64,000 bases of DNA. Source: an uncultured Elioraea sp. GTDB lineage: Bacteria; Pseudomonadota; Alphaproteobacteria; Acetobacterales; Acetobacteraceae. Below the pieces are notes generated by a model. It was not told where the DNA came from. It did not search any database and was given only the letters and a program-made list of their open reading frames with translations. The translations under genes and the position numbers were made by a program. Where the stretch lies: the NCBI GenBank assembly GCA_937928775.1, contig CALFVI010000009.1, forward strand, positions 1-64,000, written 5' to 3'. Below are positions 25,606 through 36,662 of the stretch, piece by piece. Numbering within the stretch: the stretch's first letter is position 1; each line of letters begins with the position of its first letter.

Positions 25606-27288
25606 TCACACCCTTACGAGGGGCTTGTACTTGATGCGATGCGGGTCGGTCGCATGTTCGCCGAGGCGGCGTCGCTTGTCCTCCTCGTACATCTGGAAGT
25701 TGCCCTCGAACCACTCGACGTGGCTATTGCCCTCGAAGGCGAGGATGTGCGTGCAAAGACGGTCGAGGAACCAGCGGTCGTGGCTGATCACCACCGCGCA
25801 GCCGGCGAAGTCCATCAGTGCCTCCTCGAGCGCGCGTAGAGTGTCGACATCGAGGTCGTTCGTCGGCTCGTCGAGCAAGATCACGTTGGCGCCCGATTTC
25901 AGCATCTTCGCGAGGTGCACCCGGTTGCGCTCGCCGCCCGAGAGGATGCCGACCTTTTTCTGCTGATCGGGCCCTTTGAAGTTAAATGCGCCCACATAGG
26001 CGCGCGATTGCACCGCGCGCTTGCCGAGATAGATGATCTCCTCGCCGCCTGAAATCTCTTCCCACACGGTCTTGTTCGGATCGAGCGTGTCGCGGGACTG
26101 GTCGACATAGCCGAGCTTCACCGTCTCGCCGATGCGCAAGGTGCCGCGGTCGGGCTTTTCGATGCCGACGATCATGCGGAACAGTGTGGTCTTGCCTGCC
26201 CCATTCGGCCCGATGACGCCAACAATTCCGCCCGGCGGCAGTTTGAACGAGAGATCGTCGATCAACAGCCGGTCGCCATAGCCTTTGCTGATGTGCTCGG
26301 CCTCGATGACGACACTGCCCAATCGCGGGCCCGGCGGGATAATGATCTCCGCCACCCCCGTGGCCTTCTCATTCTGCTGCGCGAGCATCTCCTCGTAGCG
26401 CTGGATGCGGGCTTTGTTCTTCGCTTGGCGCGCCTTGGGGCTCGCTGCGATCCATTCCCGCTCTGCGGCCAGCGCCCGCATGCGCGCGGTCTCCTCTTTC
26501 TCCTCTTGCTCGAGGCGCTTGCGCTTTTGCTCGAGCCAGGCGGTGTAATTCCCCTCGTAGGGGTAGGCGCGGCCGCGTTCGATCTCGAGGATCCAGCCCG
26601 TGACGTTGTCGAGGAAGTAGCGGTCGTGGGTGACGACGATCACGGTGCCGGGGTAGGTGCGCAGCGTCTTCTCGAGCCAGGCGACACTTTCGGCGTCGAG
26701 ATGGTTGGTCGGCTCGTCGAGCAGCAGAAGGTCGGGCTTCTCGAGCAGGAGCTTGCATAGCGCCACACGGCGCCTTTCGCCGCCCGAGAGGTGGGTCACC
26801 GGGCTGTCCGCGGGCGGGCAGCGCAGCGCATCGAGCGCGATGTCGATCTGGCGGTCGATCTCCCAGCCGTTCGCGGCATCGATCTTCTCCTGCAACTCCG
26901 CCTGCTCGGCGAGAAGCGCGTTCATCTCCTCGTCGGACAGCGGTTCGGCGAACTTGGCCGAGATCTCGTTGAAGCGCTCGAGGGCGGAGACGATGTCGCC
27001 GAGGGCGGCCTTCACGTTCTCGCCCACCGTCTTCGTGGGATCGAGCTCGGGCTCCTGCGGCAGGTAGCCTACGCGCACGCCGTCCGCGGCCCAGGCTTCG
27101 CCGCCATAGTCCTTGTCGAGGCCGGCCATGATCTTGAGCAGGGTCGACTTGCCGGCGCCGTTGACGCCGAGCACGCCGATTTTCGCCCCCGGGAGGAAAG
27201 AGAGGGTAATTCCCTTAAACACCTCACGCCCGCCCGGATAGGACTTGGTGAGGTTCTTCATCACAAAGACGTATTGATAGGACGGCAT
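25606..27288 (-). CDS. ettA: Energy-dependent translational throttle protein EttA (ABC-F)
   Basis: A 560-residue soluble ABC-F ATPase with two nucleotide-binding domains and no membrane segment. The first has Walker [10 protein letters not shown] and signature [16 protein letters not shown]; the second has GPNGAGKTT and [15 protein letters not shown]. The linker and arm region ([17 protein letters not shown]) and the conserved N terminus [17 protein letters not shown] are specific to EttA, which binds the ribosomal E site and gates translation by ATP/ADP ratio. ATG 27288 starts the homology. It stands alone between tRNA-Phe and the oxidase operon. Confidence 0.96.
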
Positions 27289-27382: not shown

Positions 27383-28759
27383 TCAGGCGGTCTCGTAGAG
27401 GTGAACGGTCTGGCTTGGCCGCCAGTCCGGGTTCTCCCAGGCGAGCATCTTGCCTGGGTTGAGCAGGCCAAGCGGGTCTGCTTCGCGCTTGAAGGCAAGC
27501 TGCAGCTCGTCGACCTTTTTCATGCCCCCCTCTTCGAGCGTGTAGGCATGGGGGTTGAAGATCGGACACCCGGCCTCTTCGTGGATGGCGATGATCTCGG
27601 CGAGCCGCTCCTCGCTCCTGAAGCGCACGAGCTGCAGGCCGAAGCAGGTCACCTCTCCGCCGAACTTCACGAACTCGAGATGCATCGGCACCTCGTCGCC
27701 GAAGCGCGCCTCCATCGCTGCGACCTTGGCGAGATGGTCTGGCGGGGGAAACAGCGTCTGCAAGTAAGTGACGGTCTTGTCCGTCTTCAGCACTTGTAGC
27801 GTGGTGTGGTTCCAGGAGTGTTCGTAGAGCGGCACCTCCGCCGCCTCGGTGGGTTCGCGGTGCACCACCTCACCGCCATGGGCGGCGATGAAGGGGAAGA
27901 CGTGCTCGAGGAACGGGGCAGCGACCATGAGCAGCGCGACCGCGCGCCCCTGCGGGATCTTCCCCTCCAGCGCCTTGAAGTGCGTCTGCGGCACGCCGGC
28001 GGCGATAATCGAGACGAGCTTCTTCGCGATGCCATCCTGGCGGGTGAAAGCATCGCCGAAGCGGGCAGCGTCCATCAGCGTGGGGAAAGCCGCGACGAGA
28101 TCGATCCACTCCCAGGCCGGAGCAAGCGGCATCTCGACCTCGGTGATCACACCGTTCGTGCCGTAGGCGTGGTTGGCTTTCTGGATGTCGGGCCCGCGCA
28201 GCTCGATCACGCGCGGGCGCTCCTCCATTGTCAGCAGCCGGAGGCCTAGGATATTGCCGGGTTCGCGCAGGATGCCCCAGGTGCAGGAGCCGATCCCCGA
28301 CGAACCGCCGGCGATGAAGCCGCCGATGGTGGCGGTGCGCCGTGTCGAGGGGTGGAAGCGAAGCTCGCCGCCGACGGCAGCGCGCGTGTGCAAGTCGATG
28401 TCGATCAGTTTCGCGCCGGCCTCCGTGCGCACGACACCCGGTCTGGCCCACAGGATACGATCAAGGGCAGAGAGGTCGAGCACGATGCCGCCGCGGATCG
28501 GCATCGCCTGTCCGTAGTTGCCCGTCCCTGCCCCGCGCGGCGTGACCGCAACGCGATGGCGGAAGGCGGCGGCGAGGACGCGCGCCACCTCGGCCTCGGT
28601 CTTCGGCATTACCACCGCCTCGGCGGCGACCGCGTTCAGCTGTCGCTTCAGCACCGGCGAATACCAGAAGAAGTCGCGGCTCTTTTGCCGCACCAGAGCG
28701 CGATCGGTCTCCACCGCGATGCCGTCGAGTTCGGCGAGCAACGCCTCAACCCCGCTCAT
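27383..28759 (-). CDS. FAD-linked oxidase (GlcD/D-lactate dehydrogenase type), copy 2 of tandem pair
   Basis: A 458-residue flavoprotein with an N-terminal PCMH-type FAD domain (VTPRGAGTGNYGQAM, then STRRTATIGGFIAGGSSGIG) and a C-terminal cap domain ending GLLNPGKMLAW. Family members oxidise 2-hydroxy acids or similar substrates and hand electrons to quinones, cytochromes or oxygen. It is strongly similar to the product of the gene just upstream. The pair share KSRDFFW(Y/F)SP, an EYAWNHTTL/EHSWNHTTL block and the LNPG end. ATG 28759 overlaps the upstream stop by four bases. It is the last gene of a six-gene operon; the substrate is unknown. Confidence 0.85.
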   Translation of the reverse strand: MSGVEALLAELDGIAVETDRALVRQKSRDFFWYSPVLKRQLNAVAAEAVVMPKTEAEVARVLAAAFRHRVAVTPRGAGTGNYGQAMPIRGGIVLDLSALDRILWARPGVVRTEAGAKLIDIDLHTRAAVGGELRFHPSTRRTATIGGFIAGGSSGIGSCTWGILREPGNILGLRLLTMEERPRVIELRGPDIQKANHAYGTNGVITEVEMPLAPAWEWIDLVAAFPTLMDAARFGDAFTRQDGIAKKLVSIIAAGVPQTHFKALEGKIPQGRAVALLMVAAPFLEHVFPFIAAHGGEVVHREPTEAAEVPLYEHSWNHTTLQVLKTDKTVTYLQTLFPPPDHLAKVAAMEARFGDEVPMHLEFVKFGGEVTCFGLQLVRFRSEERLAEIIAIHEEAGCPIFNPHAYTLEEGGMKKVDELQLAFKREADPLGLLNPGKMLAWENPDWRPSQTVHLYETA

Positions 28760-30123
28760 CCTGCCATCTCCCTCTCGCTCACTGGCACATAGCTCGTCAT
28801 CCTGCCCGGATTGAGAAGCCCCCAAGGGTCGACGCGTCGCTTGAAGGCGAGACGGTCCGCCGCGACGAGCTTCCAACGCGCGCCCTCCTCCAAAGTGGAG
28901 ACGTGCGGGTTTGCGACCTGAATACCCATCGCTTCGCAGGTCGCGATCATCTCCGCCAGGGCCGCCGCTCCCTGCCAGCGGATCACTGGCAGCGCGCTCA
29001 TCGTCACCCGGCCCGAGAAACGGCCCACCTCGGTGTGCAGCCAAGCCGTATCGGTGAAGCGGGCGCGAAACTCGGCGACTGTCTCAAGCAGGCGATCGGG
29101 TGGGAAGAGCAGCTGCAGATAGGTGACACCCTTGTCGCGCTTTAGCACGTGCAGCGTGGTGTGGTTCCAGGCATACTCGTAGAACGGCGTCTGGTCGTGG
29201 TGCTGTTCGGCGAAGAGCGTGTCCTGTTCGGCGACGATCGTGCCCCCGTGCTCCCCTGCCAGATCGCGCGTCGCGGCCAGTCCCGATGGCGCGACCATCG
29301 CAAGCACGAGCGGCTTCCCCTCCGGCACCACCTCCTCCAGCCCCTTGAAAAACGACGGTAGCGGCCAGTCGATCACCGAACAGAGCTTTTTCGCGATCCC
29401 GTCTGCCAGGCCCAAGGCGAGGCCAAAGCGCGCGGCGTGATCGAAATCTGGGAAGGCGATGGCAAGGTCGCGCCAGGGGGTGGCGGGAGCGAGCGGGATG
29501 CGCACGCGGGTGATGATGCCCGTGGTGCCGAAGGCGTGGTTGGCCTGCGCGGCCTCCGCTCCCTCGAGCGACATCAAGCGCGGGCTTGCTTCCGCGGTGG
29601 CGATGGTCACGCCCGCCAGATTGCCTCGCTCTCGCAACGTTCCCCAGGCGATCCCACCGACCCCCGCGCCACCGCCGGCGACGAAACCGCCGATCGTTGC
29701 CATCCGCTTGGTCGAAGGCCAAAGCCGAAGCTCCCAGCCGAGCCCCCTCGCCCAGGCGTCGATCTGCATCAGTGTCACGCCCGCCTCGACCTCGGCGACG
29801 CCGTTGTCGATCGAAATCATTCGGTCCATCCCCGTGAGGTCGAGGATGGCGCCACCCGCCAGAGGCACCGCCTGGCCGTAATTGCCGGTGCCCCCGCCGC
29901 GAGGGGTGACGGGGATGCGGTGATGCACGCAGGCGGCGAGAGCGGCCAGCACCTCGTCCTCGCTGCGCGGGCGAATGACGAGGTCGCCGCGCCGGCCCTC
30001 CAGTGCGGCCTTTAGGATCGGGCTGAACCAGAAGAAGTCGCGACTTTTCAAGCGGACCACGACCGGGTCGGTTTCCGTCTCGATCGCCCTGAGGTCGGCA
30101 AGCAGAGCGTCGAGATCAGGCAC
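28756..30123 (-). CDS. FAD-linked oxidase (GlcD/D-lactate dehydrogenase type), copy 1 of tandem pair
   Basis: A protein of about 455 residues with FAD_binding_4 features VTPRGGGTGNYGQAVPLAGG, STKRMATIGGFVAGGGAGVG and a C-terminal LNPGRMTSY. It is homologous throughout to the downstream oxidase. The two may form a heteromer, as GlcD/GlcE do, though unlike GlcE both keep the complete FAD domain. The GTG at 30123 (PDLDALLADL) is chosen because homology begins there and it overlaps the creatininase-family stop by eight bases; a longer frame from 30147 is possible. Translation appears coupled on both sides. Confidence 0.85.
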   Translation of the reverse strand: MPDLDALLADLRAIETETDPVVVRLKSRDFFWFSPILKAALEGRRGDLVIRPRSEDEVLAALAACVHHRIPVTPRGGGTGNYGQAVPLAGGAILDLTGMDRMISIDNGVAEVEAGVTLMQIDAWARGLGWELRLWPSTKRMATIGGFVAGGGAGVGGIAWGTLRERGNLAGVTIATAEASPRLMSLEGAEAAQANHAFGTTGIITRVRIPLAPATPWRDLAIAFPDFDHAARFGLALGLADGIAKKLCSVIDWPLPSFFKGLEEVVPEGKPLVLAMVAPSGLAATRDLAGEHGGTIVAEQDTLFAEQHHDQTPFYEYAWNHTTLHVLKRDKGVTYLQLLFPPDRLLETVAEFRARFTDTAWLHTEVGRFSGRVTMSALPVIRWQGAAALAEMIATCEAMGIQVANPHVSTLEEGARWKLVAADRLAFKRRVDPWGLLNPGRMTSYVPVSEREMAG

Positions 30124-30919
30124 TGGCCTGCTCCGCCAGCAACGCATCGACGTCGATCGCGGCCATCTCCGCGATCAGCCGTGCTGTCGCCTCTCCGGCC
30201 CGGCGCAGGAGCTCGCGCCCAATCGTCTCGGAGGCGGCAGAGGCATCGCCCACCGCTCCAGCTGGGTTGAGATCCTGCGCCTGCCAGCCGAAAGCGACCG
30301 CCCCGCCACGACGCAGAAAGGAGAGAGTGTCCCAGGCCGCTGTAGCATTGGGAAACGAACTGAGCCGGTCCTGCCGCACGCGATGGGGCGCGAGAGCGAG
30401 CATCATCGAGGTCTCCAACTGGCCGCCGTGGATGCCGAAGCGGAGTTCATCGGCGGAGATCAGATCATCGAGCCGGATTAGGCGGTTCCACATCGCGGTC
30501 GCGGCGAAGATCCGGTGCGTGATGCGCAATCTGCGGCAGACGATTTCAGCAATCTGCGGCTGCCCACCATGCGAGTTGAGGAGGAGAAGGCGCCGGATGC
30601 CCGCTGCAGCCACCGAAGCGCCGATCTCCTCCCAGGCAGCGAGCGCCGTTTCCGGGCGAAGGGTCAAGGAGCCGGGATACCGCGCGTGTTCCACCGAAAC
30701 CCCGATGGACTGCGTTGGCAGAACGAGGCACTCGACATCGTCCGGCATACACGCCATGGCCGCTGCGACCACGCCTTCGTTGATCGCGGTGTCGACCGCA
30801 ACGGTGAGGTGCGGCCCGTGCTGTTCCGTGGCCGCAATCGGCAGCACAGCCACCGCATGCGCCTTGTCGAGGGCGGAGAACTCCGTCCAGGTGAGATCGT
30901 GCCAAAACCGGGCCGGCAT
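30116..30919 (-). CDS. Creatininase-family amidohydrolase
   Basis: A 267-residue metal-dependent hydrolase. The family's metal ligands are all visible: Glu and His in ATEQHGPHL, Asp in AVDTAINEG, His in LLNSHGGQPQI and Glu in HGGQLETSMM. Members cleave creatinine, other cyclic or formyl amides (for example the deformylase ArfB) or cyclic ketones of inositols, so the exact reaction cannot be assigned. It starts three bases after the ABC permease stop and overlaps the first FAD oxidase, which makes it the centre of the six-gene operon. A joint catabolic role is likely but inferred. Confidence 0.88.
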   Translation of the reverse strand: MPARFWHDLTWTEFSALDKAHAVAVLPIAATEQHGPHLTVAVDTAINEGVVAAAMACMPDDVECLVLPTQSIGVSVEHARYPGSLTLRPETALAAWEEIGASVAAAGIRRLLLLNSHGGQPQIAEIVCRRLRITHRIFAATAMWNRLIRLDDLISADELRFGIHGGQLETSMMLALAPHRVRQDRLSSFPNATAAWDTLSFLRRGGAVAFGWQAQDLNPAGAVGDASAASETIGRELLRRAGEATARLIAEMAAIDVDALLAEQASA

Positions 30920-30922
30920 GGC

Positions 30923-31708
30923 TCAATGTCCCGTGGCGTAGGCTGCCTGATCCATCCCCCGTGTGGCCCAGCCGGTCATCCGCCTCTCCAGCGCGGCAAA
31001 GATCGCATACATGCCAATCCCCATCGCCGCGACGACGACGAGAGCGGCGAAGACGAGCGGGATCTGGAACCGCGACGAGGCCTGCAGCATCAGGTAGCCG
31101 ACACCTTCATTCGATCCCACCGTCTCACTGATGATGGAGCCCACGAAAGCGAGCGTGATCGCGACCTTGAGCGAGGCGAAAAAGTAAGGCGCAGCACGTG
31201 GCAGGCCGACCTTGCGCAGGATGTCCAGCCGCGAGGCGCCGAGGCTGCGCAGCACGTCGCGCAACTCGGGCTCCAGCGTAGCGATCCCCGTCGCGACATT
31301 GACCACGATGGGGAAGAAACTGATCAGGAACGCGGTGATGACAGCCGGCACCGTGCCGATGCCGAACCAGATGATCAGCACCGGAACGATCGCCACCTTG
31401 GGGATGGAGTTGAACCCGACAAGGACGGGAAATACCGCCTTGTAGGCAACCTGGGAGGCGCCGATCGCTGCCCCGAGCGCCACCCCGCCGACCACGGAGA
31501 AGGCGAAGCCGACCAGCGTCGTCATCAGCGTGTGCAGAGAGTGCTGGGTGATCGGTCCTGCGAATTGCATGAGGGTGGCGAAGACTTCGGTCGGCGCCGG
31601 CAGCACGAAGGAAGGAAGCCGCGCGGCAATCACCACCCCCTCCCAAAGCACGAACAGCGCGACCACAACGAACCACGGTCCAAGCGCTTCCTGCCAGCGA
31701 CGCGACAC
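30923..31708 (-). CDS. ABC transporter permease, SsuC/TauC-like
   Basis: A 261-residue inner-membrane permease with about six helices. It belongs to the BPD_transp_1 family used by sulfonate, nitrate and pyrimidine-precursor importers. The EAA loop that contacts the ATPase is seen at DVLRSLGASRLDILRKVGLP. The PAPTEVFATL motif near the N terminus is typical of the SsuC/TauC group. Only one permease gene is present, so it should homodimerise. It lies 12 bases after the ATPase gene and 3 bases before the creatininase-family gene. Confidence 0.93.
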   Translation of the reverse strand: MSRRWQEALGPWFVVVALFVLWEGVVIAARLPSFVLPAPTEVFATLMQFAGPITQHSLHTLMTTLVGFAFSVVGGVALGAAIGASQVAYKAVFPVLVGFNSIPKVAIVPVLIIWFGIGTVPAVITAFLISFFPIVVNVATGIATLEPELRDVLRSLGASRLDILRKVGLPRAAPYFFASLKVAITLAFVGSIISETVGSNEGVGYLMLQASSRFQIPLVFAALVVVAAMGIGMYAIFAALERRMTGWATRGMDQAAYATGH

Positions 31709-31720
31709 GGCGGGCTCTCC

Positions 31721-32512
31721 TTAGGCAGCGACGCGCGCTTGCGCGATGCGCGCGCGAAGATGGTGCACGAGATCAATGAAGTGCGGCTCGAAGGTGGTCT
31801 CGAGCGTGCGCGGGCGGGGAATGTCGATCGTTGTCGTCTCAATCACCCGCCCGGGCCGCGCGCTCATCACGTGCACCGTGTCGGCGAGATAGACGGCCTC
31901 GCGCAGGTCGTGCGTGACCAGGATGCAGGTGAAGCGCCGCTGCAGCCAGAGGTCCTGCAGCACCGCCCAGAGCTCCTCGCGCGTGAACGCATCGAGTGCG
32001 GCGAAAGGCTCATCGAGCATCAGCAGGTCGGGTTCGTGGATCAAAGCCCGGCAGAGGCTCGCGCGCTGCTGCATGCCGCCCGAGAGTTGCCACGGATAGC
32101 GCTGCTCGAACCCCTTCAGCCCCACGGTGGCAAGCAATGCCTCGGCACGCGCGATGTGCTTCTCGCGATCGCGCCGGAACGTCGCCTTGTAGGGCTGGAC
32201 GATCTCCAGCGGCAGCAGCACGTTATCGAGCGTGGTGCGCCAGGGCAGGAGGGTGGGGTTCTGGAACGCCATACCAACGATCTTCAGCGGTCCCGCCACC
32301 TCGCGCCCGGCGACAATCACGTTGCCCCGCGAGGCCGGAGCAAGGCCGGTGATGAGCTTCATCAGTGTGGACTTGCCGCAGCCCGAAGGCCCGACCACGG
32401 CAGCGAATTCCCCGCGCGCGATGGAGATCGTCAAGCCCTCGACCGCGAGCGTGCCGCCGTCATACGTCAGGCTGACATTGTCGAGTTCGACGTACTTCAG
32501 TTCCGTTCTCAC
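31721..32512 (-). CDS. ABC transporter ATP-binding protein, SsuB/TauB-like
   Basis: A 263-residue ATPase with Walker A GPSGCGKST, Q-loop in GMAFQNPTLLPWRTTL, signature LSGGMQQRASLCRALI and Walker B LLMLDEPFAALD followed by the VTHDLREAVYLAD switch region. These features and the VMSARPGR end-block match the nitrate/sulfonate/taurine importer group. It overlaps the substrate-binding-protein gene by four bases, and with the permease it forms a complete importer. Confidence 0.94.
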   Translation of the reverse strand: MRTELKYVELDNVSLTYDGGTLAVEGLTISIARGEFAAVVGPSGCGKSTLMKLITGLAPASRGNVIVAGREVAGPLKIVGMAFQNPTLLPWRTTLDNVLLPLEIVQPYKATFRRDREKHIARAEALLATVGLKGFEQRYPWQLSGGMQQRASLCRALIHEPDLLMLDEPFAALDAFTREELWAVLQDLWLQRRFTCILVTHDLREAVYLADTVHVMSARPGRVIETTTIDIPRPRTLETTFEPHFIDLVHHLRARIAQARVAA

Positions 32513-33522
32513 GGAACGACCCTCAGGTCTTGAGCGGGAGGTAGGAATTTCGGGTCGTACACCTCGCTAGCCTTCATCTCGCGGGCGATGCCGAACGCCT
32601 CTCGCGCGATGTCGATCGAACGCTGCAGCCGCGCCATATCCACCGCGCTGAAGCCGTTGGCGAGCACATGCGGAGTGAAGGTGAGCTCGGCGAAGCCAAG
32701 GAGCATCCGCTCCTTTTCCACTGCAGGGTCGATCAGCGGATCGCGCCGGCGCAGAGCGGCGATGGCCGCGTCAGGATCCCGCCGCGCCTCGTTCTGGCCG
32801 CGCACGATCGCGCGAATGAGGCCCGTCACCGCGCGCGGGTTCGCTTCCGCCCAGCGCCGTGTCGTGAGCAGGCTGGTCGAATAGAGGTCAACACCGAACG
32901 CGCTGTATTTGAAGGTGACGATGTCCTCGGCGCGCGCCCCACCTGCCTTCAGAGACAGGATACCCGAGGTGATGAAGCCGGTGATCGCGTTCGCCTGGCG
33001 CTGCAGGAGCATGGATTCCCGAAGCTGCGGGCTCACCGTCAGCCAGCGCACGGACGCTGGGTCGATGCCGACCGCGCGGGCGAAGGCCGGAAAAAGCTGG
33101 CGGCCGGCATCCACCTCGGGAGCAGCGATCGTCTTGCCGGCGAGATCCTGCGGCCGGGTAATTCCTTCCCGTCGCAAAGTCATCACCGCCAGCGCCGTCG
33201 CATCGTAGATGATGAAGGGCGAGAAGATGTCGAGCTCGGGCCGCTCGAGCTTCATCCGAATGGTCGGGTTGAGGTCGGCGATGCCGACGTCGTAGGTGCC
33301 GGCGAGGATCTTGATCGGCACATCGCCCGAGCCGAAGCCGCGATCCATCGTCACGTTCAACCCCTCGTCCCGGAAGAAGCCGCGCTCGAGGGCAAGCAGA
33401 AAGGGCGCCTGCGGGCCCTGGAACGCCCAATCCAGGCTAAAGCGCACGTCAGTGGCGCGGGCCGGTCCGCCCACACAGGCGGCGATGCACGAGAACAACG
33501 CCACGATGTAGAACCGACGCAT
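32509..33522 (-). CDS. ABC transporter substrate-binding protein, NMT1/SsuA-like
   Basis: A 337-residue periplasmic binding protein with a signal peptide (MRRFYIVALFSCIAACVGGPARA, hydrophobic core residues 5-17) and an NMT1/THI5-like domain: FSLDWAFQGPQAPFLLALER, GFGSGDVPIKILAGTYDVGI and DLAGKTIAAPEVDAGRQLF. Homologues bind nitrate, sulfonates, taurine, hydroxymethylpyrimidine or formylaminopyrimidine. The Cys residues in the signal region do not form a clear lipobox. ATG 33522 is fixed by a GGAGGAGAGG ribosome site. It leads the operon, so the downstream hydrolase and oxidases presumably process the imported compound. Confidence 0.9.
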   Translation of the reverse strand: MRRFYIVALFSCIAACVGGPARATDVRFSLDWAFQGPQAPFLLALERGFFRDEGLNVTMDRGFGSGDVPIKILAGTYDVGIADLNPTIRMKLERPELDIFSPFIIYDATALAVMTLRREGITRPQDLAGKTIAAPEVDAGRQLFPAFARAVGIDPASVRWLTVSPQLRESMLLQRQANAITGFITSGILSLKAGGARAEDIVTFKYSAFGVDLYSTSLLTTRRWAEANPRAVTGLIRAIVRGQNEARRDPDAAIAALRRRDPLIDPAVEKERMLLGFAELTFTPHVLANGFSAVDMARLQRSIDIAREAFGIAREMKASEVYDPKFLPPAQDLRVVP

Positions 33523-33699: not shown

Positions 33700-34391
<692 letters not shown>

Positions 34392-34395
<4 letters not shown>

Positions 34396-35642
34396 GCCGC
34401 GCCGCGCACGATCTCGACCGGATTGAGACGCGAGGCTTTGCGTGCCGGCACGAAGGCTGCCACCATCGCAGCGATCAGGGCAAAGCCCCCCCCGGCGAGG
34501 TAGGGCCAGGTCTCGCGCGCGAGGATGAATCCATCGCGTCCGCGCAACGGTCCGCCGGCGGATTGGAAGCGGATCTGCGCCAAAACCTCGATCAACCCAT
34601 AGCCCACCGCCCAACCGACGACCGCCCCGGCCACCCCGACGATCACCCCCTCAAGCAGGAAGATCGCCTGGATGTCGCTCGCCCGGAAGCCGAGCGATTT
34701 CAGGATCGCGATGTCACGCGCCTTCTCGTGCACCACCTGCGAGATGATGGTGTAGATGCCGAAGGCTGCGACGAGCAGGATCGCACCCACCACGGAAAAC
34801 ATGATCGCGTTCTGGATGACGAACAGCGCAAGCACGTTGCGGTTGCTCTCCTCCCAGCTCTCCGTGCGGTAACCAAATGCGGTCTCGAGGCGGCGCGCGA
34901 GCGGCTCGGCCTTGCGCACATCCTCCAGCCTGATCCGGATCTGGTTGATCACGTTCGGCCGATCGAGGATCACCTGCGCGAGACGGAGCAGAACATAGGC
35001 CTCGCGCTCATCGAGCGCGGTCACACCGGTTTCGATCAGGCCGACAATGCGGAAACTGGTGGCTACTCCCGAGGGGGCGACCGCGATCACCGTGTCGCCG
35101 AGCGAGGCGCCGAGACGTTGCGCGACGCCGATGCCAACGATGACGCCGTTCGCGGTTGCACGCAGGTCCTCGAGGCGACCTGCGATCATGTCCTTCTCGA
35201 TGTTGGTCACGCGCCGTTCCCGCCCCGGATCGATGCCAGCAAGGCTCACCGCGACATCGCGCCCGCCATAGCGGAAGAGGGCGGGGCCGCGCAGCACCGG
35301 GGCAGCCGCCACACCAGGAATCGCCTCGATCGCCTCGATCTTCGCCCCCGCCTCGCGGATGCCGCGCACCGCCTCGCGCGGACGCACGCCGCGCACCACG
35401 ACCGCGCCGCCGGCGAAGGCGCGCTCTGCGGGCTGCAGGTCGGGCGAGCGGAATTCGTCCTTCATCACCACATGCGGTGCGACGTCGATCACCTGCTGCA
35501 CGAAGTAGGTCTGGAAACCCCGCATCAGGGCCGCGATCGCGACGAAGAAGCCGACCCCGAGCGCGACCCCAAGGAGCGAAACGACCGTCTGGCGCTTGCG
35601 CCGCTTCAGGTGCCCGACCGCGATGGCGAGTGTGAGCGACAT
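34392..35642 (-). CDS. ABC transporter permease, FtsX/MacB/DevC-like
   Basis: A 416-residue permease with one N-terminal helix (QTVVSLLGVALGVGFFVAIAAL), a large periplasmic MacB-PCD-like domain and three C-terminal helices in the FtsX domain. The N-terminal RRKRQTVVSLLGVALG and the conserved DIAILKSLGFRASDIQAIF coupling helix are diagnostic. Its stop overlaps the ATPase start, and it begins six bases after the HlyD-type adaptor gene. It most resembles DevC or MacB-like transporters that move lipids, antibiotics or peptides; cargo unknown. Confidence 0.92.
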
Positions 35643-35648
35643 CGCGCC

Positions 35649-36662
35649 TCAGCGCGTCGCCGCACCGGAGGGAAGGCGGATGCGCGCGCCGTCTGCCAGT
35701 TTCGCCGGCGGGTCCCGCACCACGAGCTGTCCCTCCTCGATCCCAGACTTCACCGCGGTGCGCAGAGGGCCGCGCACGCCGAGTTCTACCGGCACACGCC
35801 GCACCATCGCCCCCTCGACCACGAACAGCGTGCCGTCGCGCAAAGCAGAGGTGGAAACGAGAAGCGCCTCGGGGTCGGCGTGCAGGATGATGTTCGCCTC
35901 CACCGTCATGCCCACCATCAGCGGCGTGTCGTCAGGCAGCGCGATTCGCACGCGATAGACCTTGAGCCGAGGGTCGCCCTTCGGCGTGATCTCCGCCACT
36001 GTGCCCTCAAGGGTCCGGCCCGGGAAGGCATCGGCCTTTAGCAGCACCTTCAGGCCGGGGGCGACGCGCGGGATGTCCTCCTCGTCGACCTCCGCCGTCA
36101 CACGCAGGGGGCGAGTCTCGCCAACCCAGAACACGGTCGTTGTCGTATCCACCACCTCGCCGATCTCGCCGTCGCGGCGCAGCACCACCCCCGCGATCGG
36201 CGAGCGGAGCACGTAGTCGTCGAGGCGCCGGCGCGCCGCCTCGACGATCGCGTCCGCTGCGCGCGCCTCGCTTTCCGCCCGCTCCAGCGCGGCGCGGGCG
36301 ACGATCTCGCGCGAGGCGAGCGCCCTCAGCCGCGTGGCCTCCTCGCGCAGGAAAGCCGCGCGGGCCTCGGCCTCCTCGACCTGGGCGCGGGCCACAGTAT
36401 CATCCAGCCGCGCGAGCACGGCGCCGCGCTCCACGCGCTCGCCCTCCTGCGGGCCAAGCCAGACGAGCCGCCCTTTCACCAACGGGCCGATGCGCGCCCA
36501 CACCACCGGTTCGACGGTGCCGGTGGCATAGACCGCCTCGACAGCAGGGCCGCGGCTGACAGCTTCAGTCTCGACCAGCGGAGGGCGGGACAGCCACCAC
36601 CACCCGCCTGCAGCAGCGCCCGCGAGGCAGAACACGATCACGATCCGCGAAAGACGACCCAT
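35649..36662 (-). CDS. HlyD-family periplasmic adaptor subunit
   Basis: A 337-residue membrane fusion protein with a single N-terminal anchor helix (IVIVFCLAGAAAGGWWWL) and a biotinyl-lipoyl-like half motif GRLVWLGPQEGERVERGAVLARLDD. A helical hairpin of about 60 residues rich in Ala, Glu and Arg follows, then the second lipoyl half SPIAGVVLRRDGEIGEVV and beta-barrel parts. It would link the FtsX-type permease to the outer envelope. It is the first gene of the three-gene export operon, and beyond its 5' end begins the decayed region. Confidence 0.92.
   Translation of the reverse strand: MGRLSRIVIVFCLAGAAAGGWWWLSRPPLVETEAVSRGPAVEAVYATGTVEPVVWARIGPLVKGRLVWLGPQEGERVERGAVLARLDDTVARAQVEEAEARAAFLREEATRLRALASREIVARAALERAESEARAADAIVEAARRRLDDYVLRSPIAGVVLRRDGEIGEVVDTTTTVFWVGETRPLRVTAEVDEEDIPRVAPGLKVLLKADAFPGRTLEGTVAEITPKGDPRLKVYRVRIALPDDTPLMVGMTVEANIILHADPEALLVSTSALRDGTLFVVEGAMVRRVPVELGVRGPLRTAVKSGIEEGQLVVRDPPAKLADGARIRLPSGAATR

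Follow-up and report, generated by a model that had tools for sequence, protein, structure and literature searches.

Gene content of the operon

The first 64,000 nucleotides of contig CALFVI010000009.1 (positions 1 to 64,000, forward strand; called the window below), from the assembly of an uncultured Elioraea sp. (GCA_937928775.1), contain a six-gene operon encoding an ATP-binding cassette (ABC) importer, a creatininase-family hydrolase, and two paralogous flavin adenine dinucleotide (FAD) enzymes, OX1 and OX2. We propose, with a probability of about 0.72, that this operon encodes one part of a divided pathway for pterin/folate catabolism, with the remaining part encoded elsewhere in the genome. 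The proposal is built on the gene content of the operon, the relation of OX2 to a crystallized flavin oxygenase, the conserved linkage of related genes, and a second locus in the host. The operon comprises:

32509..33522, minus strand: NMT1/THI5-like periplasmic binding protein (SBPa), 337 amino acids (aa); Pfam NMT1, 104 bits
31721..32512, minus strand: ABC transporter ATPase, 263 aa; ABC_tran, 106.2 bits
30923..31708, minus strand: ABC transporter permease, 261 aa; BPD_transp_1, 98.4 bits
30116..30919, minus strand: creatininase-family amidohydrolase, 267 aa; Pfam Creatininase, 228.5 bits
28756..30123, minus strand: FAD oxidase/oxygenase paralogue 1 (OX1), 455 aa, GTG start at 30123; FAD_binding_4, 95.1 bits
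27383..28759, minus strand: FAD oxygenase paralogue 2 (OX2), 458 aa; FAD_binding_4, 89 bits; relative of Protein Data Bank (PDB) entry 6V42

A first-pass annotation made from the sequence had placed six minus-strand genes at 33522 to 27383 with junctions of −4, +12, +3, −8, and −4 bases, and recomputing the coordinates gave the same values throughout. It had described a catabolic operon that looks intact, joining an importer of the NMT1 type to a creatininase-family hydrolase and a pair of FAD paralogues with both FAD domains retained; this also agreed with the Pfam matches, all of which were above cut-off. Other genomes of the genus that recur below include Elioraea thermophila (G001), E. tepidiphila (G003), Elioraea sp. 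Yellowstone (G006), and E. rosea. The identical six-gene order was found in E. thermophila, where the proteins are 85 to 96% identical to those of the host (95% for OX2).

OX2 is closely related to a flavin oxygenase linked to folate catabolism

The best solved relative of OX2 was 6v42 (553.9 bits, 56% identity over 448 residues, near the whole length), whose A chain is titled in the PDB “Crystal structure of the flavin oxygenase with cofactor bound involved in folate catabolism.” An AlphaFold model of OX2 built from 38 aligned sequences (mean predicted local distance difference test score, 87.3; predicted template modeling score, 0.88; a single-sequence model scoring 34.6 was discarded) gave a predicted fold matching 6v42_A with a Z score of 47.4 and a root mean square deviation of 2.2 over 446 residues, while the next entry, a lactate dehydrogenase, reached a Z score of 29.4. 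In a tree of 49 of 121 oxidase rows, kept below 78% identity with open reading frame (ORF) ends trimmed, with a bootstrap that had not settled and two long branches that meet, OX2 and 6V42 shared one 28-row clade (support, 100/94) and OX1 fell outside it. By near-full-length similarity, modeled fold, and clade, OX2 is therefore a probable member of the 6V42/6V43 type. The closest relative of 6V42 among the loci compared came from an uncultured Mesorhizobium (75%), and no paper on 6V42 or 6V43 was found in the open-access library searched. Within the host's family, a relative at an E value of 1e-60 or better was present in 23 of 150 genomes, so the trait is patchy.

Relatives of OX2 are linked to a creatininase-family gene and a deaminase

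Neighborhoods were compared at the best 80 of 213 confirmed loci, taken from one scan of named genomes and chosen by similarity to OX2. Twenty-two of these were shorter than 21 kb and were excluded from a full-length set of 58. Neighbor counts came from translated searches; greedy ORF tables miss or misplace some genes. Across all 80 loci, a creatininase-family gene was found at 64 and a cytosine-deaminase-like amidohydrolase at 59; within 1.5 kb of OX2 itself, the counts were 33 and 56. In the full-length set, 49 loci had the creatininase-family gene, 47 had the deaminase, 38 had both, and none had neither, and these were accompanied by an NMT1 binding protein at 53 loci, a flavodoxin-fold reductase at 45, and a RidA gene at 36. 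The first-pass annotation knew of no named pathway with this exact gene set; the kinship of OX2 with 6V42 and the frequency of deaminases and reductases in these neighborhoods now point to one.

Two comparisons put these counts in context. The background density of creatininase-family genes was about 0.68 per Mb (from 55 rows, including one below the cut-off, across 16 genomes totaling about 80.5 Mb by rounded sizes, clustered copies counted). At that density, among 58 stretches of 21 kb, about one would be expected to carry such a gene; the observed 49 of 58 is not an independent test of this expectation, as the loci are related and were picked by OX2 similarity. Around 19 distant FAD oxidases used as a control, there were no creatininase-family and no deaminase neighbors within 1.5 kb on each side of the matched part.

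The association is present in alpha-, beta-, and gammaproteobacteria. Plasmid annotations, with incomplete gene tables, listed a creatininase-family protein, an importer, an amidohydrolase, and a FAD oxidoreductase together in Rhizobium, Pseudooceanicola, Comamonadaceae, Leisingera, Pantoea, Klebsiella, and Alloyangia, and RidA was annotated alongside them on the Rhizobium, Comamonadaceae, Pantoea, and Klebsiella plasmids. The exact gene order of the window was present at only 3 of the 80 loci, all from Elioraea (L053, L056, and L057), and E. tepidiphila and Elioraea sp. Yellowstone have only the ATPase, creatininase-family, and OX2 genes at the operon site. Of the six-gene unit described at first, then, the linked core stood, but the neighborhood is in part split elsewhere: what is conserved is a core of the creatininase-family gene with the FAD oxygenase, and not the full order of six genes.

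A second host locus carries the deaminase and reductases

Elsewhere in the host genome (2.32 Mb, 81.5% complete), contig C38 encodes an NMT1 binding protein, ATPase, permease, deaminase, reductase, cupin, and second reductase, both reductases having a flavodoxin fold. The deaminase scored above the PRK07583 cut-off (608.7 versus 403), and a deaminase was present in 7 of 7 genus genomes searched. The spacing of the two loci varies within the genus. Contig C2 of E. thermophila carries both halves about 230 kb apart, and in E. rosea (L056) and an Elioraea metagenome-assembled genome (L057), a reductase gene comes directly after the six, with a divergent deaminase-permease-ATPase-binding protein set beyond it.

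Fan et al. 2013 reportedly placed Arad3529 at the start of a pterin degradation pathway that had yet to be described. According to a study on the deamination of pterins during bacterial folate degradation, a pterin deaminase from Variovorax (399 aa) is 37.0% identical to Arad3529, and “endoribonuclease” genes lie downstream of predicted pterin deaminase genes in V. paradoxus (PMC9513972). The Pantoea cluster amidohydrolase is likewise 399 aa with RidA downstream, and the deaminases of Rhizobium-type and Comamonadaceae-type clusters are 37% identical to each other. This length, the downstream RidA gene, and the degree of identity are consistent with, and no proof of, a pterin deaminase. The nearest described counterparts are the Variovorax sp. 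F1 pterin deaminase and Arad3529 (PMC9513972): an amidohydrolase of the cytosine deaminase kind is frequent in the clusters and present at the second host locus, where it is a putative pterin deaminase. The window operon differs in having none. The deaminase strengthens the folate link given by the 6V42 title.

A candidate route for pterin breakdown

A database title and family names suggest folate or pterin as the substrate and pterin deaminase as the role of the C38 enzyme. On this proposal, the NMT1-type importer would bring in a pterin or folate breakdown product, and the putative pterin deaminase of C38, a cytosine-deaminase-like amidohydrolase, would convert pterin to its 2-oxo (lumazine) form. 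OX2 and OX1, supplied by the NAD(P)H/flavin mononucleotide-type reductases of the C38 locus, would then oxidize the pteridine, in its ring or its side chain, with the two enzymes perhaps using separate intermediates. A ring amide of the oxidized pteridine might afterwards be hydrolyzed by the metal-dependent enzyme of the creatininase family. The order of reactions, the hydrolase step, the partnership with the reductases, and the division of labor between OX1 and OX2 are all steps that we infer. The specific version in which the creatininase-family hydrolase opens an oxidized pteridine, the two anciently diverged FAD oxygenases act successively, and two unlinked operons of Elioraea each have an NMT1 importer is tentative, with odds somewhat below even.

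The first-pass annotation, which had a cyclic amide being imported, hydrolyzed, and oxidized, was right in kind, but it missed the partner enzymes and the folate link. It had also put ring opening before oxidation, and nothing found fixes that order.

A catabolic gene set for folate or pterin is partly known; new here are the split arrangement, the anciently diverged tandem oxygenases, and the lineage-specific transporter. Folates and pterins are very widespread cofactors, and bacterial breakdown of the pterin ring is poorly described. The ring-degradation steps are said to have been described biochemically in the 1960s, and to our knowledge they are still without genes. If the specific version above is true, these steps would gain genes. 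The proposed tie of the importer, the creatininase-family protein, and the paired oxygenase to 6V42, a deposited folate-catabolism enzyme, makes their genes candidates for the steps still missing, and it calls into question many proteins annotated as “creatininase” or “cytosine deaminase.” No description of this gene set was recognized among the matches listed from the open-access literature, a body that leaves subscription journals mostly outside.

Several observations weigh against the proposal. One PDB title, that of 6V42, carries the whole folate link, and the closest solved structure to SBPa (3ix1) binds a thiamine pyrimidine. The window operon itself has no deaminase, RidA, or reductase gene, and NCBIfam names the host C38 enzyme a cytosine deaminase, which leaves its pterin deaminase role putative. 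Among the 58 full loci, the deaminase was absent nearby at 11 and the creatininase-family gene at 9. Of the 80 loci, 35 are of the Elioraea/Roseomonas type (some unclassified alphaproteobacterial bins included), and of the 21 of these that are full length, all had the creatininase-family gene and only 10 had the deaminase, with RidA seen at none of the 35. Finally, three Elioraea genomes in which searches did not find the operon (G002, G004, and G005) also have the deaminase locus; G002 had weak creatininase matches only (the best, 31% over most of the protein). The flanking ABC-F gene was without a close match in these three genomes as well (best identities, 34 to 36%), so contigs may be missing, and failure to find the operon there is no sign that it was lost.

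Alternative substrates

Degradation of a different N-heterocycle, whether fused or simple (a purine, modified pyrimidine, or flavin fragment), by the same chemistry is unlikely, and survives better than the other alternatives. The cytosine deaminase name of the deaminase family fits such a substrate, and the RidA genes, together with a RutB-like isochorismatase at 2 of the 58 full loci, are reminiscent of the Rut uracil pathway, although both fall below the RutC and RutB cut-offs; folate is what the 6V42 title names. The Rut pathway similarly combines a flavin oxygenase, a reductase, a RidA-type protein, and a hydrolase for an N-heterocycle, with an importer different from that of the window operon. 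The window oxygenases, by contrast, are FAD_binding_4 proteins, and RutA was absent from their NCBIfam matches. The isochorismatase was rejected as a partner, its relatives in Elioraea being weak (best, 40%, partial).

The model first offered for this operon, in which creatinine, a hydantoin, or some lactam is broken down with the help of hydroxy-acid dehydrogenases of the GlcD type, is very unlikely. The family names favor it, and the CREATININASE-family (creatininase-family) protein retains its motifs (EQHG from residue 32, NSHGG from 115, and HGGQLET from 164), at which it aligned with 3a6e and 1q3k and whose residues we take to be metal ligands. Membership in the superfamily is clear (PF02633, 228.5 bits versus a cut-off of 31.3), but the protein scored below the cut-off of the creatininase equivalog (TIGR04448, 73.1 versus 235) and was also under the cut-offs for MftE (TIGR03964, 99.4 versus 172) and IolN. 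Hydroxy-acid oxidation fared no better: GlcD scores of the two oxidases were 64.9 and 60.1 against a cut-off of 567.9, and OX2 groups with 6V42, an oxygenase by title. Likeness to GlcD/GlcE extends to the FAD_binding_4 domain and to adjacent paralogues; the window oxidases score far below both cut-offs, and both copies keep the FAD domain.

Slightly less probable again is thiamine-pyrimidine salvage, in which an imported formylaminopyrimidine would be deformylated by the creatininase-family protein. The best solved relative of SBPa, 3ix1, is an N-formyl-4-amino-5-aminomethyl-2-methylpyrimidine (FAMP) binding protein (E value, 3.2e-10). Against this, the operon has no thiamine gene, no thiamine pyrophosphate or other riboswitch reached the Rfam gathering score in the window (three tRNAs were the sole matches), and we know of no role for tandem FAD oxygenases in such salvage.

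BrbF, the AFRPP formamidase of Sinorhizobium and Brucella, deformylates a formylamino-pyrimidine in riboflavin synthesis and was initially annotated as a creatininase-type protein; that report leaves more distant homologues open, and the two tested there did not complement (PMC9478397). That the window protein is such a BrbF is the least probable reading of all: it is the single creatininase-family gene found in the incomplete host genome, but it lies in an importer-oxygenase operon and in an Acetobacterales cluster clade (99/97), the BrbF-like genes adjoining a CobW-motif protein (L168 and L175) form their own 100/100 pair within a Rhizobiales clade, and a GTP cyclohydrolase II domain was found in 7 of 7 Elioraea genomes searched. 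The window protein and BrbF thus have the family in common and differ in subclade and gene context. This tree kept 45 of 94 rows below 80% identity, with long ORF ends trimmed and two very long rows remaining; its BrbF-like rows were chosen by the CobW motif in the neighbor, and the experimentally tested BrbF sequences are outside it. The riboflavin, thiamine, creatinine, and GlcD readings were set aside on this evidence.

OX1 and the tandem oxygenase pair

Within the proposed pterin/folate pathway, the window differs from a 6V42 system alone in having a second, older tandem paralogue. OX1 and 6V42 share 42% identity across 445 residues, and OX1 was placed in a separate 9-row clade (99/94) with unsettled bootstrap support, a placement that gives no orthology with 6V42. 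We interpret the pair as the outcome of an ancient duplication rather than of recent tandem copying. Comparing 16 OX1 sequences with 60 of the OX2 type, 101 positions were conserved and identical across both classes, and 9 were conserved within each class yet different between them. We infer from these alignments that OX1 and OX2 probably have the same flavin chemistry and different substrates. The tandem occurs at 26 of the 80 loci, all of them among the 35 of the Elioraea/Roseomonas type.

Two further gene associations concern these genes or their relatives. A third related pair, an NMT1 binding protein (48% identical to SBPa) adjoining an oxidase-like gene, lies on contig C25 of the host (L043, 1586-3527) and in E. 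thermophila (G001:C5:286576-289107); the N-terminal part of its oxidase is missing in the host, and the gene is split over two frames in E. thermophila. A VanA-type Rieske oxygenase had OX1 nearby at 15 of the 15 loci that carry it and SBPa nearby at 14. As a module member it is a weak candidate and was rejected; the host relative (51%; G000:C74:23678-24658) is a lone gene, and the matches in G004 (C215) and G005 (C29) are fragmented with internal stops.

Importer genes and flanking regions

SBPa belongs to PF09084 (NMT1/THI5; score, 104 versus a cut-off of 20.5) and by NCBIfam is neither SsuA (50.4 versus 163.5) nor TauA (22.9 versus 304.25). For the ATPase, no NCBIfam model was above cut-off among the 25 matches listed, the top types being taurine, SaoA, and nitrate. 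SBPa co-occurred with OX1 at all 19 loci that bear it, and at 16 of the 19 it directly adjoins the creatininase-family gene, with no space for an ATPase or permease between them. Since SBPa mostly abuts this gene elsewhere, the ATPase and permease of the window look like lineage-specific additions, and outside this lineage SBPa may work with the permease of the other operon. Elsewhere in the genomes of E. tepidiphila and Elioraea sp. Yellowstone, a 61 to 62% permease relative adjoins a 40% relative of the binding protein.

The operon is flanked by a MacB/FtsX-type exporter set (33700-36662) on one side and an ABC-F-like ATPase (25606-27288) on the other. Promoter and terminator scans gave results near chance level.

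Variant and plasmid-borne neighborhoods

A Klebsiella pneumoniae plasmid from a blood isolate (p2B30155, L052) carries a whole cluster, with a PDR/VanB-type reductase, amidohydrolase, RidA, creatininase-family protein, importer, and FAD oxidoreductase. On a plasmid of Agrobacterium tumefaciens F2 (L048, 7138-13086), the creatininase-family, FAD oxidase, and NMT1 importer genes are joined by an oxygenase of the 2-oxoglutarate/Fe(II) type, and neither a deaminase nor an amidohydrolase is annotated. In a variant neighborhood (L035, 4679-11469; L170; L173), a CocE/NonD (S15) hydrolase is the partner of the creatininase-family gene, and L035 also includes importer genes and an OX2-type oxidase. Beside the atzD cyanuric acid genes of plasmid pADP-1 (L148, 8935-10266) and at L149 (8935-10239), the last member of a run of ABC transporter genes is an amidohydrolase with about 52% identity to that of the Comamonadaceae cluster.

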